Assembly: GCA_020444065.1 (NCBI GenBank)
Contig: JAHLLQ010000002.1
Location: 124,001 to 188,000, forward strand
Direction: 5' to 3'
Origin: a bacterium
GTDB lineage: Bacteria; Sumerlaeota; Sumerlaeia; SLMS01; JAHLLQ01
DNA length: 64,000 bases
The notes beneath the pieces are model-generated. The model did no database searches. It saw nothing but the letters and a program-made list of their open reading frames with translations, and was not told where the DNA came from. The translations under genes were made by a program, and so were the position numbers. This document shows, piece by piece, positions 1 through 9,027 of the stretch. Positions within the stretch are counted from its first letter, which is position 1. Each line of letters begins with the position of its first letter.

Positions 1-1353
1 CCAGCTTGGTCCGAAGATCATGTGAATCAGGATTGCATCGAACAGATCGAATTCGCTCTGCCATGGCAGCGCTTTTCCATCCGATTCATCGTGTCGCGTC
101 ACCTCCATGCCCGCTTCTCGCAGCATGTCATCAATTGCATCCACCTGGTAGAGCGCATCGCCGCGCACGTGCACAGACAGTACCTTGCTGCCAGGCTTCA
201 GGTTCATCGGCAGCGCATCGTGTCGATCCACCGCCACCGTCAGGGCATTGTGAGCAATCTCGATGCTTGCCGACCGGTGCCGCTCGATGTCGGCGGGGGA
301 GACCTGATCGCCGTGCGTGCGCTCGAACAGGCCGAGCTTCTGCTTGAACGCCAGGACTCTTCGCACTGCATCGTCGAGCCGGTCCATCGAGAGCCGCCCA
401 TCTTCCACGGCACGCATCAGGATCGGGAAATCGATATCGAGTTCGCAGAACAGCACCTGGTCGCAGCCGGCTTCCAGTAGCGCCGGCACGATGTGCTCGC
501 GTGGGCCCCAACTGCTGATTCCGCCCATCGCGGATGCGTCGCTGACGATCATCCCATCGAATCCCAATTCCCCCCGCAGGAGATCCGTCGTCAGTCGCTT
601 GCTGAGCGTTGCTGGGGGAGCGGCGGAAAGCGAAGTCCCATCGCCCGGATCGATGCAAGGCAGCGCGATATGCCCAATCATCAGGCTCCACACGCCGTCT
701 GCGATCACACGCCGATACAGGCCGCCACTCAAGCGCTCCCAGTCCTCTCGCGACAACGGATTGATTGTCGTGCAGATGTGCTGGTCCCGCGCATCATAGC
801 CATCGCCGGGGAAATGCTTCGCGCATCCCGCCATCCCATGTTCCTGCATGCCGCGAATGAACGCTGTCGCCAGGCGGCCGATCAACTCCGGTTCGTCGCC
901 CAGGCTGCGCGTATTGGTGATCGGGTTCTGCGGGTTTTTGTTGATGTCGATGACCGGCGCGAAATTCCAGTGCACGCCCGCTTCCAGGCCTTCGAGAGCT
1001 GCCGCGCGTCCCATCGTCCAGGCCAGCTCCTCGTTTCCTGTCGCCGCCACGGCCATCATGTCCGGAAAGACCGTCGCGTCCTGGATCATGCGTCCGGGAC
1101 CGCACTCCAGATCCGACGACACAACGATCGGCACCTTTGCGTTCGACTGGAAGTGCTCCGAGTGCGTGCGGAACGACTCCTTTGTTCCAGGCATGATAAA
1201 GATCCCGCCCGGTTCTATATCGCCGAGGTAATCGTCCACTTCGTCCAGCGTTTGTCCCGGGCGAATAAACGGGTGCAGTATCTGGCCGACCTTTTGCGCG
1301 ATTGTCATCGTGGCCAGAAGTGTCTCGATATCGGCGGTCACAAAAGTCGTCAT
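1..1353 (-). CDS. Glycoside hydrolase family 3 enzyme (3' end outside window)
   Basis: This gene runs off the left edge, so only the first 451 residues are present. The ATG at 1353 follows a GGGAGG ribosome site. GH3 hallmarks are visible: KHFPGDG at residues 179-185, followed by RDQH, which matches the Asp-His acid/base dyad loop of NagZ-type enzymes, and GMIVSDASAMGG with the predicted nucleophile Asp272. A second, C-terminal GH3-like domain begins near residue 370, and there is no signal peptide. GH3 enzymes remove terminal beta-glucose or beta-N-acetylglucosamine residues. The dyad favours a NagZ-like mechanism, whereas the neighbouring laminarinases and sugar importer favour a cytoplasmic beta-glucosidase role. 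Substrate is therefore open; family assignment is firm. Confidence 0.85.
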   Translation of the reverse strand, partial: MTTFVTADIETLLATMTIAQKVGQILHPFIRPGQTLDEVDDYLGDIEPGGIFIMPGTKESFRTHSEHFQSNAKVPIVVSSDLECGPGRMIQDATVFPDMMAVAATGNEELAWTMGRAAALEGLEAGVHWNFAPVIDINKNPQNPITNTRSLGDEPELIGRLATAFIRGMQEHGMAGCAKHFPGDGYDARDQHICTTINPLSREDWERLSGGLYRRVIADGVWSLMIGHIALPCIDPGDGTSLSAAPPATLSKRLTTDLLRGELGFDGMIVSDASAMGGISSWGPREHIVPALLEAGCDQVLFCELDIDFPILMRAVEDGRLSMDRLDDAVRRVLAFKQKLGLFERTHGDQVSPADIERHRSASIEIAHNALTVAVDRHDALPMNLKPGSKVLSVHVRGDALYQVDAIDDMLREAGMEVTRHDESDGKALPWQSEFDLFDAILIHMIFGPSW

Positions 1354-1382: not shown

Positions 1383-1396
1383 TAGTTATCGATACC
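1383..1396 (+). promoter_or_regulatory. Predicted repressor operator, site 1 (GH3 gene)
   Basis: TAGTTATCGATACC lies 30 bp upstream of the GH3 start. It shares 13 identical bases with the site before the second GH16 gene (7617-7630). The core GTTATCGATA is nearly palindromic and CG-centred, as in LacI-family operators. A TTGACG hexamer on the minus strand (1419-1414) lies 17 bp upstream of the box, which would place the box over the -10 region. Confidence 0.55.
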
Positions 1397-1498
1397 TTTT
1401 TGCCCCACGCGAGCGTCAACGCGAAACTCCTCCCTAACCGATTTTCACCGCACTTGCAGTACATCTCATTCATGCCAAATCGGACATGGTTTGGCGGG

Positions 1499-1527
1499 AA
1501 TGTCGGATCAGATAACGATAACTGCAA
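1499..1527 (-). promoter_or_regulatory. Candidate promoter with operator site 2 in the spacer
   Basis: On the minus strand, TTGCAG (1527-1522) and GACATT (1504-1499) are separated by 17 bp. The box CAGTTATCGTTATC (1511-1524) fills this interval. It would drive the GH3 gene, with operator site 1 about 125 bp downstream, a spacing that could allow looping. The -10 match is weak; the operator match is good. The remainder of the 545-bp gap 1354-1898 shows no gene. Confidence 0.4.
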
Positions 1528-1797: not shown

Positions 1798-1811
1798 GAG
1801 TTATCGATAGC
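1798..1811 (+). promoter_or_regulatory. Predicted repressor operator, site 3 (pseudopilin/GH16)
   Basis: GAGTTATCGATAGC matches the boxes before the GH3, transporter and second GH16 genes in 11 core positions. It sits 88 bp upstream of the pseudopilin start, so the pseudopilin and the GH16 gene behind it would join the same regulon. Confidence 0.5.
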
Positions 1812-4322: not shown

Positions 4323-4362
4323 AAAGAACGGGCGCCTTCGCGATGGAAGGCGCCCGTTCTTT
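4323..4362. terminator. Bidirectional terminator between convergent genes
   Basis: A perfect 17-bp stem (4323-4339 with 4346-4362) has a 6-nt loop and ends in A and T runs on either side. It would end both the GH16 transcript and the convergent transporter operon. Confidence 0.9.
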
Positions 4363-4386: not shown

Positions 4387-5241
4387 TCAGCCCTTCAGAC
4401 CCGTGAGCGAAATGCCCTCGATGAACGTCTTCTGCGTCAGGAAGAAGAGCGCGATCACCGGCGCGACCATCAGCGTTGTCGCTGCCATCAAGTGCGTGAT
4501 CGCCGTCTCGCCCAGGCGGCTCTGGAAGGACTGCAGCCCAAGCGCCAGCGTGAACTGCTTCTCGTCCGTCAGGTAGATCAACGGCGCCATAAAGTCGTTC
4601 CAGTGATACATGAAGCTGAACAGTGCCACGACAAGCAGCGCCGGCCGGATCAGCGGAATGATGATCTGCAGGAAGATGCGCAGCTCTCCGCACCCATCGA
4701 TGCGAGCCACATCCGTTAGATCCCGCGGAACGCCAAGAAGGAACTGGCGCAGAAGGAAAATGTTATAGGCATGTCCGAAGAACGCGGGAACCCAGAGAGG
4801 CTTGTACGTTCCAATCCACCCGAGATCGCGGAAGATTGCGTACTGCGACACCATCAGCACCGGAAACGGAACCATCATCGTCGCCAGCGTGATCGCAAAG
4901 AACTTGTCGCGTCCGGGAAAGCGGTAGTGCGCGAAGCCCCACGCAATGAATGCGCTGGCCAGTGTCATCCCGATCACGTTCATGATCGCCACGTAGAGCG
5001 TGTTGCGCGTGTACAGCCAGAACGGAATCGCCTTCGTCGCAACGACATAATTATCGAATCGGAAGGGGTGCGGGATCCACTCCGGGGGAGCAGTCGTGGC
5101 CTGCTGCGCCGTCATCAGCGACGTCTTGATCATCCAAACAAACGGCAGCATGAACAGAATAGAGAGCAGGCCCAGCGTCAGATACAGAAGGAAACGCTTC
5201 GACAACGTAACGGCTGGGCTTTCACCAAGAGGCGGAATCAT
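4387..5241 (-). CDS. ABC sugar transporter permease, MalG type
   Basis: The protein has 284 residues. Its ATG shares one base with the stop of the upstream permease (TGATG), and GGAGGAAG precedes it. Six membrane segments are apparent. The cytoplasmic EAA loop reads DVARIDGCGELRIFLQIIIP, which docks the ATPase in carbohydrate importers of the CUT1 type. It is the last gene of a three-gene operon (solute-binding protein, MalF-type, MalG-type) transcribed away from the second GH16 gene. No ATPase gene accompanies it, so a shared MsmK/UgpC-type ATPase encoded elsewhere is expected. Predicted cargo is glucan oligosaccharides released by the flanking GH16 enzymes. Confidence 0.9.
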   Translation of the reverse strand: MIPPLGESPAVTLSKRFLLYLTLGLLSILFMLPFVWMIKTSLMTAQQATTAPPEWIPHPFRFDNYVVATKAIPFWLYTRNTLYVAIMNVIGMTLASAFIAWGFAHYRFPGRDKFFAITLATMMVPFPVLMVSQYAIFRDLGWIGTYKPLWVPAFFGHAYNIFLLRQFLLGVPRDLTDVARIDGCGELRIFLQIIIPLIRPALLVVALFSFMYHWNDFMAPLIYLTDEKQFTLALGLQSFQSRLGETAITHLMAATTLMVAPVIALFFLTQKTFIEGISLTGLKG

Positions 5242-6122
5242 CAACTTCCTCCGTAAACGACGAAGCGATTTGTGAGCAGGTGCGCCGAGTACGTTAGCAC
5301 CGCGATCATACCGAACAGAATCCAAGCCATCGCACACGCATACCCCATGTTCAGGTATGCGAACGCCTGGTCGAATAAGTACATTGAATAGAAGAGCGTC
5401 GAGCGCGCCGGCCCGCCGCCCGTCATGACGTACGGCAGGGCGAAAATCTGCAGCACACCGATGCAGCCCATGATCAGGTTGAAGTAGATCACCGGAGAGA
5501 TCATGGGGAGCGTGATATAAGCTGTTTCCTGCATCTTCGTGGCGCCGTCGATGCGTGCCGCTTCGTATAGCGCGCGCGGCACATCCTGCAGGCCGGCCAG
5601 GTAAATGACAACCGGGTTGCCGACAATCCACATCGTCGTCAGCACCAGGCCGGGTTTGGCCAACGCCGGATCCCCCAACCAATCGAACGGCCCGAGCCCG
5701 ATGACGCCGAGCAACTCATTCACAATGCCGTACTCGGTGTGCAGAATATCCTGCCACAGAATGGCCAGCGCCACCAACGGCACCAGCGACGGCAGGAAGA
5801 AGACCGTGCGGAAGAAGCCGAGGAACCTGATGTTTGAATTCAGGAGCAGCGCCAGGAAGAGAGCCGTCAGCGTTCCCAACGGCAATGCAAATAGCGCAAA
5901 GTAGAACGTGTTGTACAGCGAGACCCAGAAGACCTCGTCATGCACCAACTCCTGGTAATTCTGTCCCCCCAGGAAAGCCGGTGGGTTCAATACTGAGTAG
6001 TCGCAGAAGCTGTAGTACAGCGACAGGACCATCGGCAGCAGGAGGAACGATGCGAACCCGACAATCCATGGCGAAATGAACGCCATGCCGTACTTCAGTG
6101 CCCGTTTCTCTTCGCCGGTCAT
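5241..6122 (-). CDS. ABC sugar transporter permease, MalF type
   Basis: The protein has 293 residues. The preferred ATG at 6122 overlaps the stop of the solute-binding protein gene by four bases (ATGA) and has GGAG seven bases upstream. A GTG at 6134 is less likely. Six membrane segments are visible. The EAA loop is canonical: EAARIDGATKMQETAYITLP. It pairs with the MalG-type permease to form the membrane channel of a CUT1 carbohydrate importer. Co-translation from overlapping frames suggests fixed stoichiometry. Confidence 0.92.
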   Translation of the reverse strand: MTGEEKRALKYGMAFISPWIVGFASFLLLPMVLSLYYSFCDYSVLNPPAFLGGQNYQELVHDEVFWVSLYNTFYFALFALPLGTLTALFLALLLNSNIRFLGFFRTVFFLPSLVPLVALAILWQDILHTEYGIVNELLGVIGLGPFDWLGDPALAKPGLVLTTMWIVGNPVVIYLAGLQDVPRALYEAARIDGATKMQETAYITLPMISPVIYFNLIMGCIGVLQIFALPYVMTGGGPARSTLFYSMYLFDQAFAYLNMGYACAMAWILFGMIAVLTYSAHLLTNRFVVYGGS

Positions 6123-7483
6123 AGGTTGCTCCACTCTTCGAGTCGCTGCTGGCCAATGGCCTCCCAGCGCTCGTTCATCAGATCCAACTTGGGCTGCATG
6201 CGTTCCTTCACGCGATCCAGGGCGTCCTTGACACTCAGCTTATCCGGAGGTGTCACCCAGAGACGTTCCTGCGCCACTCCCAACTCGTCGCGGTACTCGA
6301 TCCAGACCGGAGTCTTCGGGACCGCCTGCGCATTCGGCGATTCGGCCAGCGCGCGGAACATGCGGATGTAGGGATTCGGGTGCTTCTCGTAGAACCCCTC
6401 GGACACCTCCTTGCGCGGCGAGAACTTCTTCTGGAGCAGGCAGAGCTCCTCGATGTTCTCCTGCTTCTGGACGAACTTGATAAAATCCCAGGCTTCTTCG
6501 ACATGTCGCGAGCCGCGCGGAATCACCAGCATGTCCGTCTCCACAATCGTCGCCGGTCCGCCCGTGACGTACGATGCTGAAGGGAATGGCGCCGCCGCCC
6601 AATCCATCCCGTCTCCGAACTTCTCGATGAAGTTCGCCATCCACACGCCCTGCTGCTTCATCGCGACGCGGCCAGACATGAAGGAGTTTGAAGAAGAGGC
6701 AAACTGCCCGCGATGGGCCGAACTGAAGAACCGAACCTTTTCGGAGTCGTAATTCGTCACATACGAGCGATACCACTCGAATGCCCGCACGTTCTCCGGA
6801 GAGTTGCAGAGCAGTTCCTTCCCATCATCGCTCAGGAGCTTTGCGCCGAACCATACTCCCCAGAACTGGTCCCACCACCCAGGATCGTTCGGCACGAAGC
6901 CCATATGTGTGTAATTGCCATCCTCGCCGACCTTCGTCATCAGGCGAGCATAGCGATCGAATTCCTCGATGGTTGTCGGCGGCTTCTCCGGATCGAGGCC
7001 CGCCTCGCGGAAGCTGTCCTTGTTGTAGTGCAGGGCAACCGTCGCCGGGGTCGCAGGCAATCCCCAGACGAAATCGCGATAGACACAGGTATTGATGATC
7101 GATGGAACGTAATCATCGCGCGACAGCCCATCGCGCTCCATCAGCGAATCCAGCGGGTAGAGGACGCCTTTCTCGGCATAGCTGACCATCGCGTGCGACC
7201 AGAAGCCGGCGATATCCGGCGGGTTGCCTCCGGCCGTCGCCAGCAGCAGCTTGCGATCGATCTGGCTGGTCGAAATGAACTCAACGTAGACCTTGTCCTG
7301 CGAGGCGTTGTACTTGTCGACAATCGCCTCCATCGCGTCTTTCTCAAACCCTGTCCATTTCTCCCAGTACCGGATTTTGACGCGCCCATCGTCGGTCATA
7401 TCGTCGAGGTCCCGCGGGATAAAGAGGGCCGAAATCCCCAGGATGAGGATCGCAACGATGATGTAGGGAGTGTAGTCTTTCAT
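6119..7483 (-). CDS. Extracellular sugar-binding protein of ABC importer, membrane-anchored
   Basis: The protein has 454 residues and is the first gene of the importer operon. The N-terminus (YTPYIIVAILILGISALF) is a hydrophobic anchor without a lipobox cysteine or clear cleavage site, so the protein is probably held at the membrane by an uncleaved helix. The rest fits the family 1 solute-binding proteins (VKIRYWEKWTG at the start of the first lobe, DMLVIPRGSRHVEEAWDFIK near the C-terminal third). Its promoter has a predicted operator in the spacer. Binding of beta-gluco-oligosaccharides is inferred from the adjacent GH16 genes. Confidence 0.88.
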   Translation of the reverse strand: MKDYTPYIIVAILILGISALFIPRDLDDMTDDGRVKIRYWEKWTGFEKDAMEAIVDKYNASQDKVYVEFISTSQIDRKLLLATAGGNPPDIAGFWSHAMVSYAEKGVLYPLDSLMERDGLSRDDYVPSIINTCVYRDFVWGLPATPATVALHYNKDSFREAGLDPEKPPTTIEEFDRYARLMTKVGEDGNYTHMGFVPNDPGWWDQFWGVWFGAKLLSDDGKELLCNSPENVRAFEWYRSYVTNYDSEKVRFFSSAHRGQFASSSNSFMSGRVAMKQQGVWMANFIEKFGDGMDWAAAPFPSASYVTGGPATIVETDMLVIPRGSRHVEEAWDFIKFVQKQENIEELCLLQKKFSPRKEVSEGFYEKHPNPYIRMFRALAESPNAQAVPKTPVWIEYRDELGVAQERLWVTPPDKLSVKDALDRVKERMQPKLDLMNERWEAIGQQRLEEWSNL

Positions 7484-7523
7484 GATTGGAACCGCCGGGG
7501 TGTCGACTCACGAATTTTCCGTG

Positions 7524-7552
7524 GTTATAGGTAACGATAACGTCGCAGTCAA
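7524..7552 (-). promoter_or_regulatory. Sigma-70 promoter with operator site 4 filling the spacer
   Basis: On the minus strand, TTGACT (7552-7547) and TATAAC (7529-7524) are exactly 17 bp apart. The box ACGTTATCGTTACC (7530-7543) lies wholly between them. A bound repressor would block polymerase directly. Transcription would start about 35 bp upstream of the solute-binding protein start. This is the best-formed promoter in the window. Confidence 0.75.
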
Positions 7553-7587
7553 GGCTTTTGGACCGAAAAGTTTCCCTGGGTTAACGC

Positions 7588-7630
7588 TTGACCTCGGAAG
7601 CCTTACCTTCAAGTGTGGTATCGATAACTT
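7588..7630 (+). promoter_or_regulatory. Candidate promoter and operator site 5 for the second GH16 gene
   Basis: TTGACC at 7588-7593 is a plausible -35; the hexamer 17 bp on (AAGTGT) is a poor -10. Immediately after it comes the box AAGTTATCGATACC on the minus strand (7617-7630), in a position typical of a +1 operator. It is 33 bp upstream of the GTG start. Confidence 0.5.
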
Positions 7631-7662
7631 GGGGTTGAATCGATTCATCGTCAGGATTGCCT

Positions 7663-9027
7663 GTGAGCCTCCGGAACCTGCCTCGTACGCTTTGTCTCGC
7701 CGCCAGTGTGGCCATCTTCGCAGCGATGTCGGGAAGCATCGCCGCCCAGAACTGGGAACTCGTCTGGTCCGACGAATTCGACGGACCCTCCATCGATTCT
7801 TCAAAGTGGAGCCATGAAGTCAATGCCCAGGGAGGTGGGAACAATGAACTGCAGTTCTACACCTCTCGTTCCGAAAACTCGTTCGTCCAGGACGGGAAGC
7901 TCGTCATCCGCGCCATCAAAGAGCAGTACACCGCTGTCGATCCCTCTGATGGACAGACCAAGACGCGTAGCTACACCTCTGCCCGGCTGAACACCAACAA
8001 CAAGGGCGATTGGCTTTATGGCCGCTACGAGGTCCGCGCCAAGCTGCCAGGGCGCCAGGGACTCTGGCCCGCCATCTGGATGCTGCCGACGGATTGGGTC
8101 TACGGCGGGTGGGCCGCCAGCGGCGAGATCGACATCATGGAACACCGCGGCGATCGCCCGACCATTCTCTACACCACGATTCATTACGGAGGGGGCTGGC
8201 CCAACAACGTGCACCACGGGGCCGAAACCACCGTTCCCGACCTCTCCGAGGACTTCCACGTCTACGCCTTCGAGTGGTACGAGAACGAGATGATCTGGTT
8301 CTTCGACGGCACCGAAGTCTGGCGCACCGATTCCTGGTACAGTGACAACGGCGACTACCCGGCGCCGTTCGACCAGCGCTTTCACATGATGCTCAACGTC
8401 GCCGTCGGCGGCAGTTTCCTGCCCGATCCACCGGCCGATGCGGATTACTTCCCGCGCGAAATGCAGGTCGACTATGTGCGCGTCTATCAGCGCAACAACG
8501 ACGATCAGCAACCCTGGTCCGGCACCCCTGTCGCCTTGCCGGCGCGGATTGAGGCCGAACACTACGACACCGGCGGCAGCATGGTCGCCTACAGCGACAA
8601 CGACGCCTCGAACAACGGCGGGGCGTTCCGACTCGACGAAGGCGTGGACATCGAAAACTCGCAGGACGAGGACGGCACCTACTCGATCGGCTGGTTCTCG
8701 CCGGGGGAGTGGGTCGAATACACCGTCAATGTTCCGCGGACCGGCGAGTACGGAATTGCCATTCGCAACTCGACGCAGAACACCGACGCAGCCGTGCGGG
8801 TCGACTTCCGACAGGCCGGCGCAACCGTCACCTCTGCAGAGACCGCTCTTTCCTCAACCGGAGGCTGGTACAACTGGACGACAACCGACGTCGGCTCGGT
8901 CAACCTGACCGCGGGTGACTACATCATCCGCGTCAATTCCACCTCGGCGGACTTCAACTTCAACTACCTGGAAATCGACCTTCTCCACGCCGCCACCGGC
9001 GACATGTGGATCATCCTCGGGGAATAA
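7663..9027 (+). CDS. Secreted GH16 beta-glucanase (laminarinase-like) with CBM6
   Basis: The protein has 454 residues. The GTG at 7663 has AGGA six bases upstream; the in-frame TTG at 7657 has no room for a ribosome site. A signal peptide runs to about residue 28 (cleavage after SIAA). The GH16 domain contains EIDIME with catalytic Glu155, Asp157 and Glu160. The CBM6 module from about residue 291 shows RIEAEHYD and EWVEYTVNV. It is a paralogue of the lipoprotein enzyme at 2697 without its Ig-like domain. A freely released depolymerase plus a tethered one, with an importer between them, is a standard arrangement for stepwise glucan digestion. Confidence 0.9.
   Translation: MSLRNLPRTLCLAASVAIFAAMSGSIAAQNWELVWSDEFDGPSIDSSKWSHEVNAQGGGNNELQFYTSRSENSFVQDGKLVIRAIKEQYTAVDPSDGQTKTRSYTSARLNTNNKGDWLYGRYEVRAKLPGRQGLWPAIWMLPTDWVYGGWAASGEIDIMEHRGDRPTILYTTIHYGGGWPNNVHHGAETTVPDLSEDFHVYAFEWYENEMIWFFDGTEVWRTDSWYSDNGDYPAPFDQRFHMMLNVAVGGSFLPDPPADADYFPREMQVDYVRVYQRNNDDQQPWSGTPVALPARIEAEHYDTGGSMVAYSDNDASNNGGAFRLDEGVDIENSQDEDGTYSIGWFSPGEWVEYTVNVPRTGEYGIAIRNSTQNTDAAVRVDFRQAGATVTSAETALSSTGGWYNWTTTDVGSVNLTAGDYIIRVNSTSADFNFNYLEIDLLHAATGDMWIILGE

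Follow-up and report, generated by a model that had tools for sequence, protein, structure and literature searches.

The window analyzed here, a stretch of 64,000 nucleotides (64 kb), carries a sugar ABC transporter operon whose predicted promoter holds a palindromic box between its -35 and -10 elements. We consider it probable, at roughly three chances in four, that this box (7530-7541) is the operator of a LacI-family protein encoded on a different contig (C5:380066-381163, here C5 LacI), that a dimer of this repressor blocks the transporter promoter until a beta-1,3-gluco-oligosaccharide releases it, and that the transporter thereby belongs to a shared regulon. Judged from the sequence, the box very probably serves as the off-switch of a LacI-type repressor, one whose control extends to further genes of beta-1,3-glucan digestion.

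The transporter genes lie on the minus strand and comprise a solute-binding protein (6119..7483; SBP_bac_1, Pfam 120 bits) and two permeases with BPD_transp_1 domains (5241..6122, with its start taken from a script, and 4387..5241). A terminator-like hairpin of 17 pairs just past the second permease (4323..4362, minus), recognized by a consensus match only, probably marks the end of the operon. The promoter consists of a -35 element, TTGACT (7547..7552, minus), and a -10 element, TATAAC (7524..7529, minus), each with five of six consensus bases, and it had rightly been called near-consensus, since the pair fits 10 of 12 sigma-70 consensus bases across a 17-bp spacer (7530-7546). It stands 41 bp ahead of the start codon, and transcription would be expected to begin near 7517. 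A simple promoter scanner missed it because its rule demands a T at position 6 of the -10. The palindromic core of the predicted operator, GTTATCGTTACC (7530..7541, minus), touches the -10 and leaves 5 bp (GCGAC) up to the -35. The preliminary description used a 14-bp box in an apparently asymmetric frame (7530-7543) and had it exactly fill the spacer; the 14-mer that is symmetric about the central CG occupies 7529-7542 and overlaps the -10 by one base. The box does lie between TTGACT and TATAAC, 17 bp apart, but "exactly fills" is slightly overstated, and the palindrome itself is imperfect. The site shows the layout known from core operators, with near-consensus -35 and -10 elements, a spacing of 16-18 bp and the site between them.

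The weight of the argument comes from the distribution of the box in this genome and from a relative, G008. The pattern GKTAWCGWTAMC, written from the sites in the window, occurs exactly at 13 places in the 5.2-Mb genome (3 inside the window and 10 outside), compared with 1 for the reversed control, and 12 of the 13 are intergenic. All 12 are centered on CG by design of the pattern, with fixed G, T, and A positions and A/T-rich edges. Seven of them precede genes for GH16, GH17, GH81, GH161, two GH3 enzymes, and this ABC transporter: in the window, the GH3 gene starting at 1353, the transporter and the GH16 gene starting at 7657, and elsewhere the second GH3 gene (C2:553803), GH17 (C3:21151), GH161 (C5:379728), and GH81 (C10:58176). 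The other five either adjoin genes with no known glucan role, namely those for an aldo/keto reductase, a secreted 410-aa protein, a thioredoxin-like protein, and a secreted 524-aa protein on C9, or sit between the GH161 gene and a LacI-family gene (C5:379876). Several boxes are shared with a divergent neighbor, so some of these assignments are uncertain; the alternative neighbors are a trypsin-like protein on C10, a 1077-aa protein on C3, and a 362-aa protein at C5:371900 (gene starts outside the window were taken from a simple script). Families GH16, GH17, GH81, and GH161 include well-known beta-1,3-glucan enzymes, and because genes of all four stand beside boxes, the common theme is beta-1,3-glucan use.

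Relaxing the pattern by one mismatch removes this specificity genome-wide, with 85 places against 79 for the control (72 against 78 with exactly one mismatch), and distant one-mismatch boxes were therefore rejected as evidence. Six one-mismatch boxes, however, lie less than 200 bp from an exact one (125511, 372932, 374669, 553956, 80753, and 58029), whereas an even spread of the 72 places would put about 0.03 near the 12 sites, times 2 for both sides, well under one. Three genes have such a pair (C2:125385/125511, C2:553835/553956, and C9:80627/80753), with the one-mismatch member lying 121 or 126 bp farther upstream. DNA looping between paired boxes was considered and discarded, as the pair distances (57, 66, 87, 90, 121, 126, 126, and 194 bp) have no common helical phase. 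The single exact box within a gene, C1:50715, falls in a gene with a cohesin domain; it and a one-mismatch box at C1:40744 take up corresponding positions close to the starts of two similar genes, of which one is cohesin-bearing, and the two boxes are probably shared coding sequence rather than operators.

Within the window, the divergent GH16 enzyme with its CBM6 domain (7657..9027, plus, starting at 7657 or 7663) has a second predicted operator core ahead of it, GGTATCGATAAC (7617..7628, plus), near a candidate -35, TTGACC (7588..7593, plus), and a weak -10, AAGTGT (7611-7616). The same core, GGTATCGATAAC, recurs as an exact box and predicted operator at 1385..1396 (minus), 31 bp ahead of the GH3 gene, which continues beyond the window edge (1..1353, minus; C2:123734-125353). 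A one-mismatch box, GTTATCGTTATC, follows 126 bp from the GH3-proximal one (1511..1522, minus), and another, GTTATCGATAGC (1800..1811, plus), lies 87 bp before a pilin-like gene (1899-2549), downstream of which is the second GH16 gene of the region (2625/2727-4304). Pilin-like genes with the start FTLIELLIVVAIIAILAAIAVPNF adjoin glucan enzyme and sugar transporter genes at two places in this genome, the window site and C10:52977-53519, and at one in G008 (C79:156498-157193, L051).

The genome encodes seven LacI-family DNA-binding domains, none of them in the window. Exact boxes were found at one of the seven loci (about 3.1 kb each), that of C5 LacI, where two lie upstream of the gene. PF00356, PF13377, and PF00532 all exceed their cut-offs in this protein, giving a LacI helix-turn-helix with a sugar-binding domain. 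Aligned to Escherichia coli LacI, it matches as far as residue 333 of 360 in LacI and residue 363 of 365 in the query, which, judged by length, would leave no room for the C-terminal tetramerization segment of the E. coli protein. A GH94 gene, preceded at 79 bp by a one-mismatch box, follows the C5 LacI gene; the closest solved relatives of this GH94 are not laminaribiose phosphorylases.

Close relatives of C5 LacI (E 1e-60) are present in 2 of 40 genomes of the phylum, this one included. In the other, G008, the protein is 47% identical to C5 LacI, and its gene extends 4 bp into the orthologous transporter gene (63% identity), with GH1 and GH16 genes on the other side of the LacI operon. G008 is 88% complete, and its one exact box (control 0) sits between the LacI/transporter operon and GH1, so that the site lies upstream of the regulator's own gene in both genomes. 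A pattern-based scan of contigs for relatives of C5 LacI gave 16 loci, with 47% identity in G008, at most 30% in the other full-length matches, and 46-52% in two short ones that cover about 50-65 residues. Ten transporter loci were taken, and L056 and L061 were excluded as being without the search motif; besides the gene itself, a paralog on C10, and G008, the rest were five genomes without this LacI, and the box was upstream of the transporter homologue in none of the five. Against this link, exact matches in three other relatives without this LacI (E 1e-60) numbered four in G002 (control 3), one in G004 (control 0), and two in G010 (control 0), and six of these seven are GGTATCGATACC, a variant absent from the 13 sites here.

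The claim that the box is a repressor site is thus well supported as a prediction, by a CG-centered palindrome of the LacI type, by copies that stand before beta-1,3-glucan genes and also ahead of a gene of the LacI family, and by the same box at the G008 LacI/transporter locus. Which LacI-family protein binds it is a separate matter, and C5 LacI is the predicted binder. With seven such DNA-binding domains in the genome, another paralog could bind the operator, alone or together with the C5 protein, and the best candidate is the LacI gene at C10:54171, which lies about 3 kb from the GH81 box (C10:58095) and near a paralog of the transporter. We regard this as unlikely. The C10 gene and the five others outside C5 have no exact box in their 3.1-kb loci, the residues that precede TVSR differ (VM in C5 LacI, LM in the G008 ortholog, IG in the C10 protein), and in G008 it is the C5 LacI ortholog to which the box is linked. 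The C10 region (C10:47872-51006) holds a second, similar ABC transporter, with GH125-like, pilin-like, and its own LacI genes nearby, and no box is found upstream of its binding-protein gene.

Assignment to C5 LacI leaves the role of the promoter to be weighed. Matches of at least 10 of 12 bases with 17-bp spacing also arise by chance, 1.0 on average in each of 20 dinucleotide-shuffled 64-kb windows, and for this reason the presence of such a promoter somewhere in 64 kb means little. On both strands of the window, however, the transporter promoter is the single match of this kind. Among 3001 shuffles of the 173-bp intergenic region, a same-strand match appeared in 0.27%, before the box is required to lie inside it, and the second-best promoter match at the site scores 7.5.

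The preliminary description held the position of the box in the spacer to be the clearest single piece of evidence for a repressor site, a ranking that we do not keep. Of the 12 targets, one, the transporter, has the box entirely inside the spacer, and the repressor-site reading consequently does not derive mainly from this position; the LacI link and the conservation in G008 are stronger. The layout is not repeated across the other targets, and the G008 transporter, which lies within the LacI operon, is not comparable. Position in the spacer does argue for repression at the transporter promoter, while the evidential weight comes from the regulon and from G008. At 8 of 12 targets, TTGAC is present in the 50 nt upstream of the core; the corresponding figure is 68 of 888 for control windows, which were taken at like distances ahead of 74 non-target genes and are not independent of one another. 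Seven of these eight targets have the box on or after the presumed -10, which is often a weak match. The remaining four (C3:21257, C5:371900, C5:374726, and the LacI side of C5:379876) have no TTGAC ahead of the box and no clear promoter. A second word, CGGTCCAA, which has a longer, partly palindromic form, ACCGGTCCAA, adjoins TTGAC in some of the box promoters and also flanks the box of G008. Its copies include window 7558-7565 (minus), C9:80672, C5 near 373105, C10 near 58070, and L051 near 9645. It is present in 4 of 10 merged box regions, with 10 copies in all loci compared, and as a second regulatory motif it was rejected, not being significant among the roughly 33,000 8-mers compared; ACCGGTCCAA occurs at 12 places genome-wide, as does its control.

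The idea that the GH3 control region copies the spacer design was not borne out. The letters of TTGCAG-17-GACATT (minus, 1527-1522 and 1504-1499) are present, but the pair has 6 of 12 consensus bases, falls outside the three best matches at the site, and would have its -35 overlapped by the box. A more plausible GH3 promoter element, from the sequence, is the candidate -35 TTGACG (1414..1419, minus), 17 bp before the core at 1385-1396, for which there is no good -10. The distance from TTGAC to the core is also 17 bp at the second GH3 gene (box C2:553835), where TTGACA-16-TGTTAT would put the box over the -10.

These comparisons bear on a second possibility, that the box is a regulator site and TTGACT/TATAAC is not a working promoter, so that the position in the spacer is coincidental. 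The chance matches in shuffled windows and the lack of the same arrangement at other targets speak for it, as does the fact that the promoter rules of this lineage are unproven. On the other side are the uniqueness of the match in the window, its place just before the start codon, its rarity in local shuffles, the low score of the next-best match, and the TTGAC that precedes the box at two-thirds of the targets, and we think coincidence improbable. An activating role for the protein, or a dual one set by box position, is hardly credible. At C3:21257 and C5:374726, one of several tied best matches (7 of 12) does set the box just upstream of the -35, but these matches are weak as well as tied, a box at the transporter position would block polymerase, and sugar-specific LacI-family regulators are mostly repressors.

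With repression by C5 LacI as the preferred reading, the following course may be envisaged. Without inducer, a LacI dimer would sit in the spacer and compete directly with RNA polymerase at the transporter promoter. It would be released by a beta-1,3-gluco-oligosaccharide, with laminaribiose suggested by analogy. Through the other boxes the same repressor would control the divergent GH16 gene, the two GH3 genes, GH17, GH81, GH161, and its own gene. From the target genes, induction by laminarin or other glucans is plausible. Operators in the core position are described as competing with RNA polymerase and repressing strongly (in the parts of PMC7515704 and PMC7804116 consulted). PMC7804116 also reports that promoters close to consensus resist repression by all but strong operators. 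Together with the imperfect palindrome of the transporter box, this counts against the reading of the box as the C5 LacI operator, and control at this promoter may not be tight.

The nearest parallel, and the source of the suggestion that laminaribiose may be the inducer, is GlyR3 of Clostridium thermocellum, likened here by its described properties. As far as the relevant sections of PMC5483248 describe it, this LacI-family protein of the celC-glyR3-licA operon is, like the repressor proposed here, an autoregulated repressor of glucanase genes, including a laminarinase-type one, is released by laminaribiose, and binds a 14-bp CG-centered site near the promoter. Its site, TGAACGCGCGTACA, is unlike the box here, GTTATCGATAAC, and the targets described there are celC-glyR3-licA and manB, whereas here there are about a dozen scattered sites and an ABC transporter. 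According to the summary figures of PMC4052901, local sugar regulons of the LacI family have an even palindrome with central CG in 1173 of 1303 regulators and autoregulation in 72%, with most sites 30-140 bp before the start codon. The regulon predicted here is alike in all three respects but has more sites than most. Engineered core-operator promoters, as presented in portions of PMC7515704 and PMC7804116, similarly place the operator between -35 and -10 so that repressor and polymerase are mutually exclusive; here the arrangement is natural and a 12-bp core fits the 17-bp spacer, whereas the engineered 21-bp lac operator needed trimming. BglR and CelR of Thermotoga maritima also regulate beta-glucan or laminarinase genes together with sugar transporter genes, but in the account given in the sections of PMC3750489 at hand, BglR, at the laminarinase operon, belongs to the ROK family, and CelR is a LacI-family cellobiose regulator.

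The mechanism proposed is thus a known one, a LacI-family regulon with one core operator, and the beta-1,3-glucan regulon in this lineage is new; searches of one open-licence library on the LacI family, laminarin, GH16/GH17/GH161, and Sumerlaeota turned up no description of it. It is an even prospect, in our judgment, that the lineage has a dedicated LacI-family repressor of beta-1,3-glucan use acting at about a dozen scattered promoters, that the starting point of this regulon may have been one local site next to the transporter, the arrangement of G008, and that the box predicts proteins of glucan use. The candidates so marked are the secreted 524-aa protein (C9:79022-80593) and the 410-aa protein (C5:373320-374552), neither of which has a convincing match in Pfam or NCBIfam. 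The C9 protein, which has a perfect box before its gene and homologues in 1 of 40 other genomes, matched nothing in Pfam at 0.001, had only weak hits once the cut-off was loosened, and has no convincing solved relative. A short, nearly genome-specific word would connect an importer, endo-glucanases, beta-glucosidase-type enzymes, and a beta-1,3-glucan phosphorylase with their likely regulator, and would point to a probable part in beta-1,3-glucan use for proteins that have no family. The transporter promoter would offer a naturally occurring example of the core-operator layout found in purpose-built promoters, and the ordinary, familiar mechanism would here be at work in a little-studied bacterium of an uncultured lineage.
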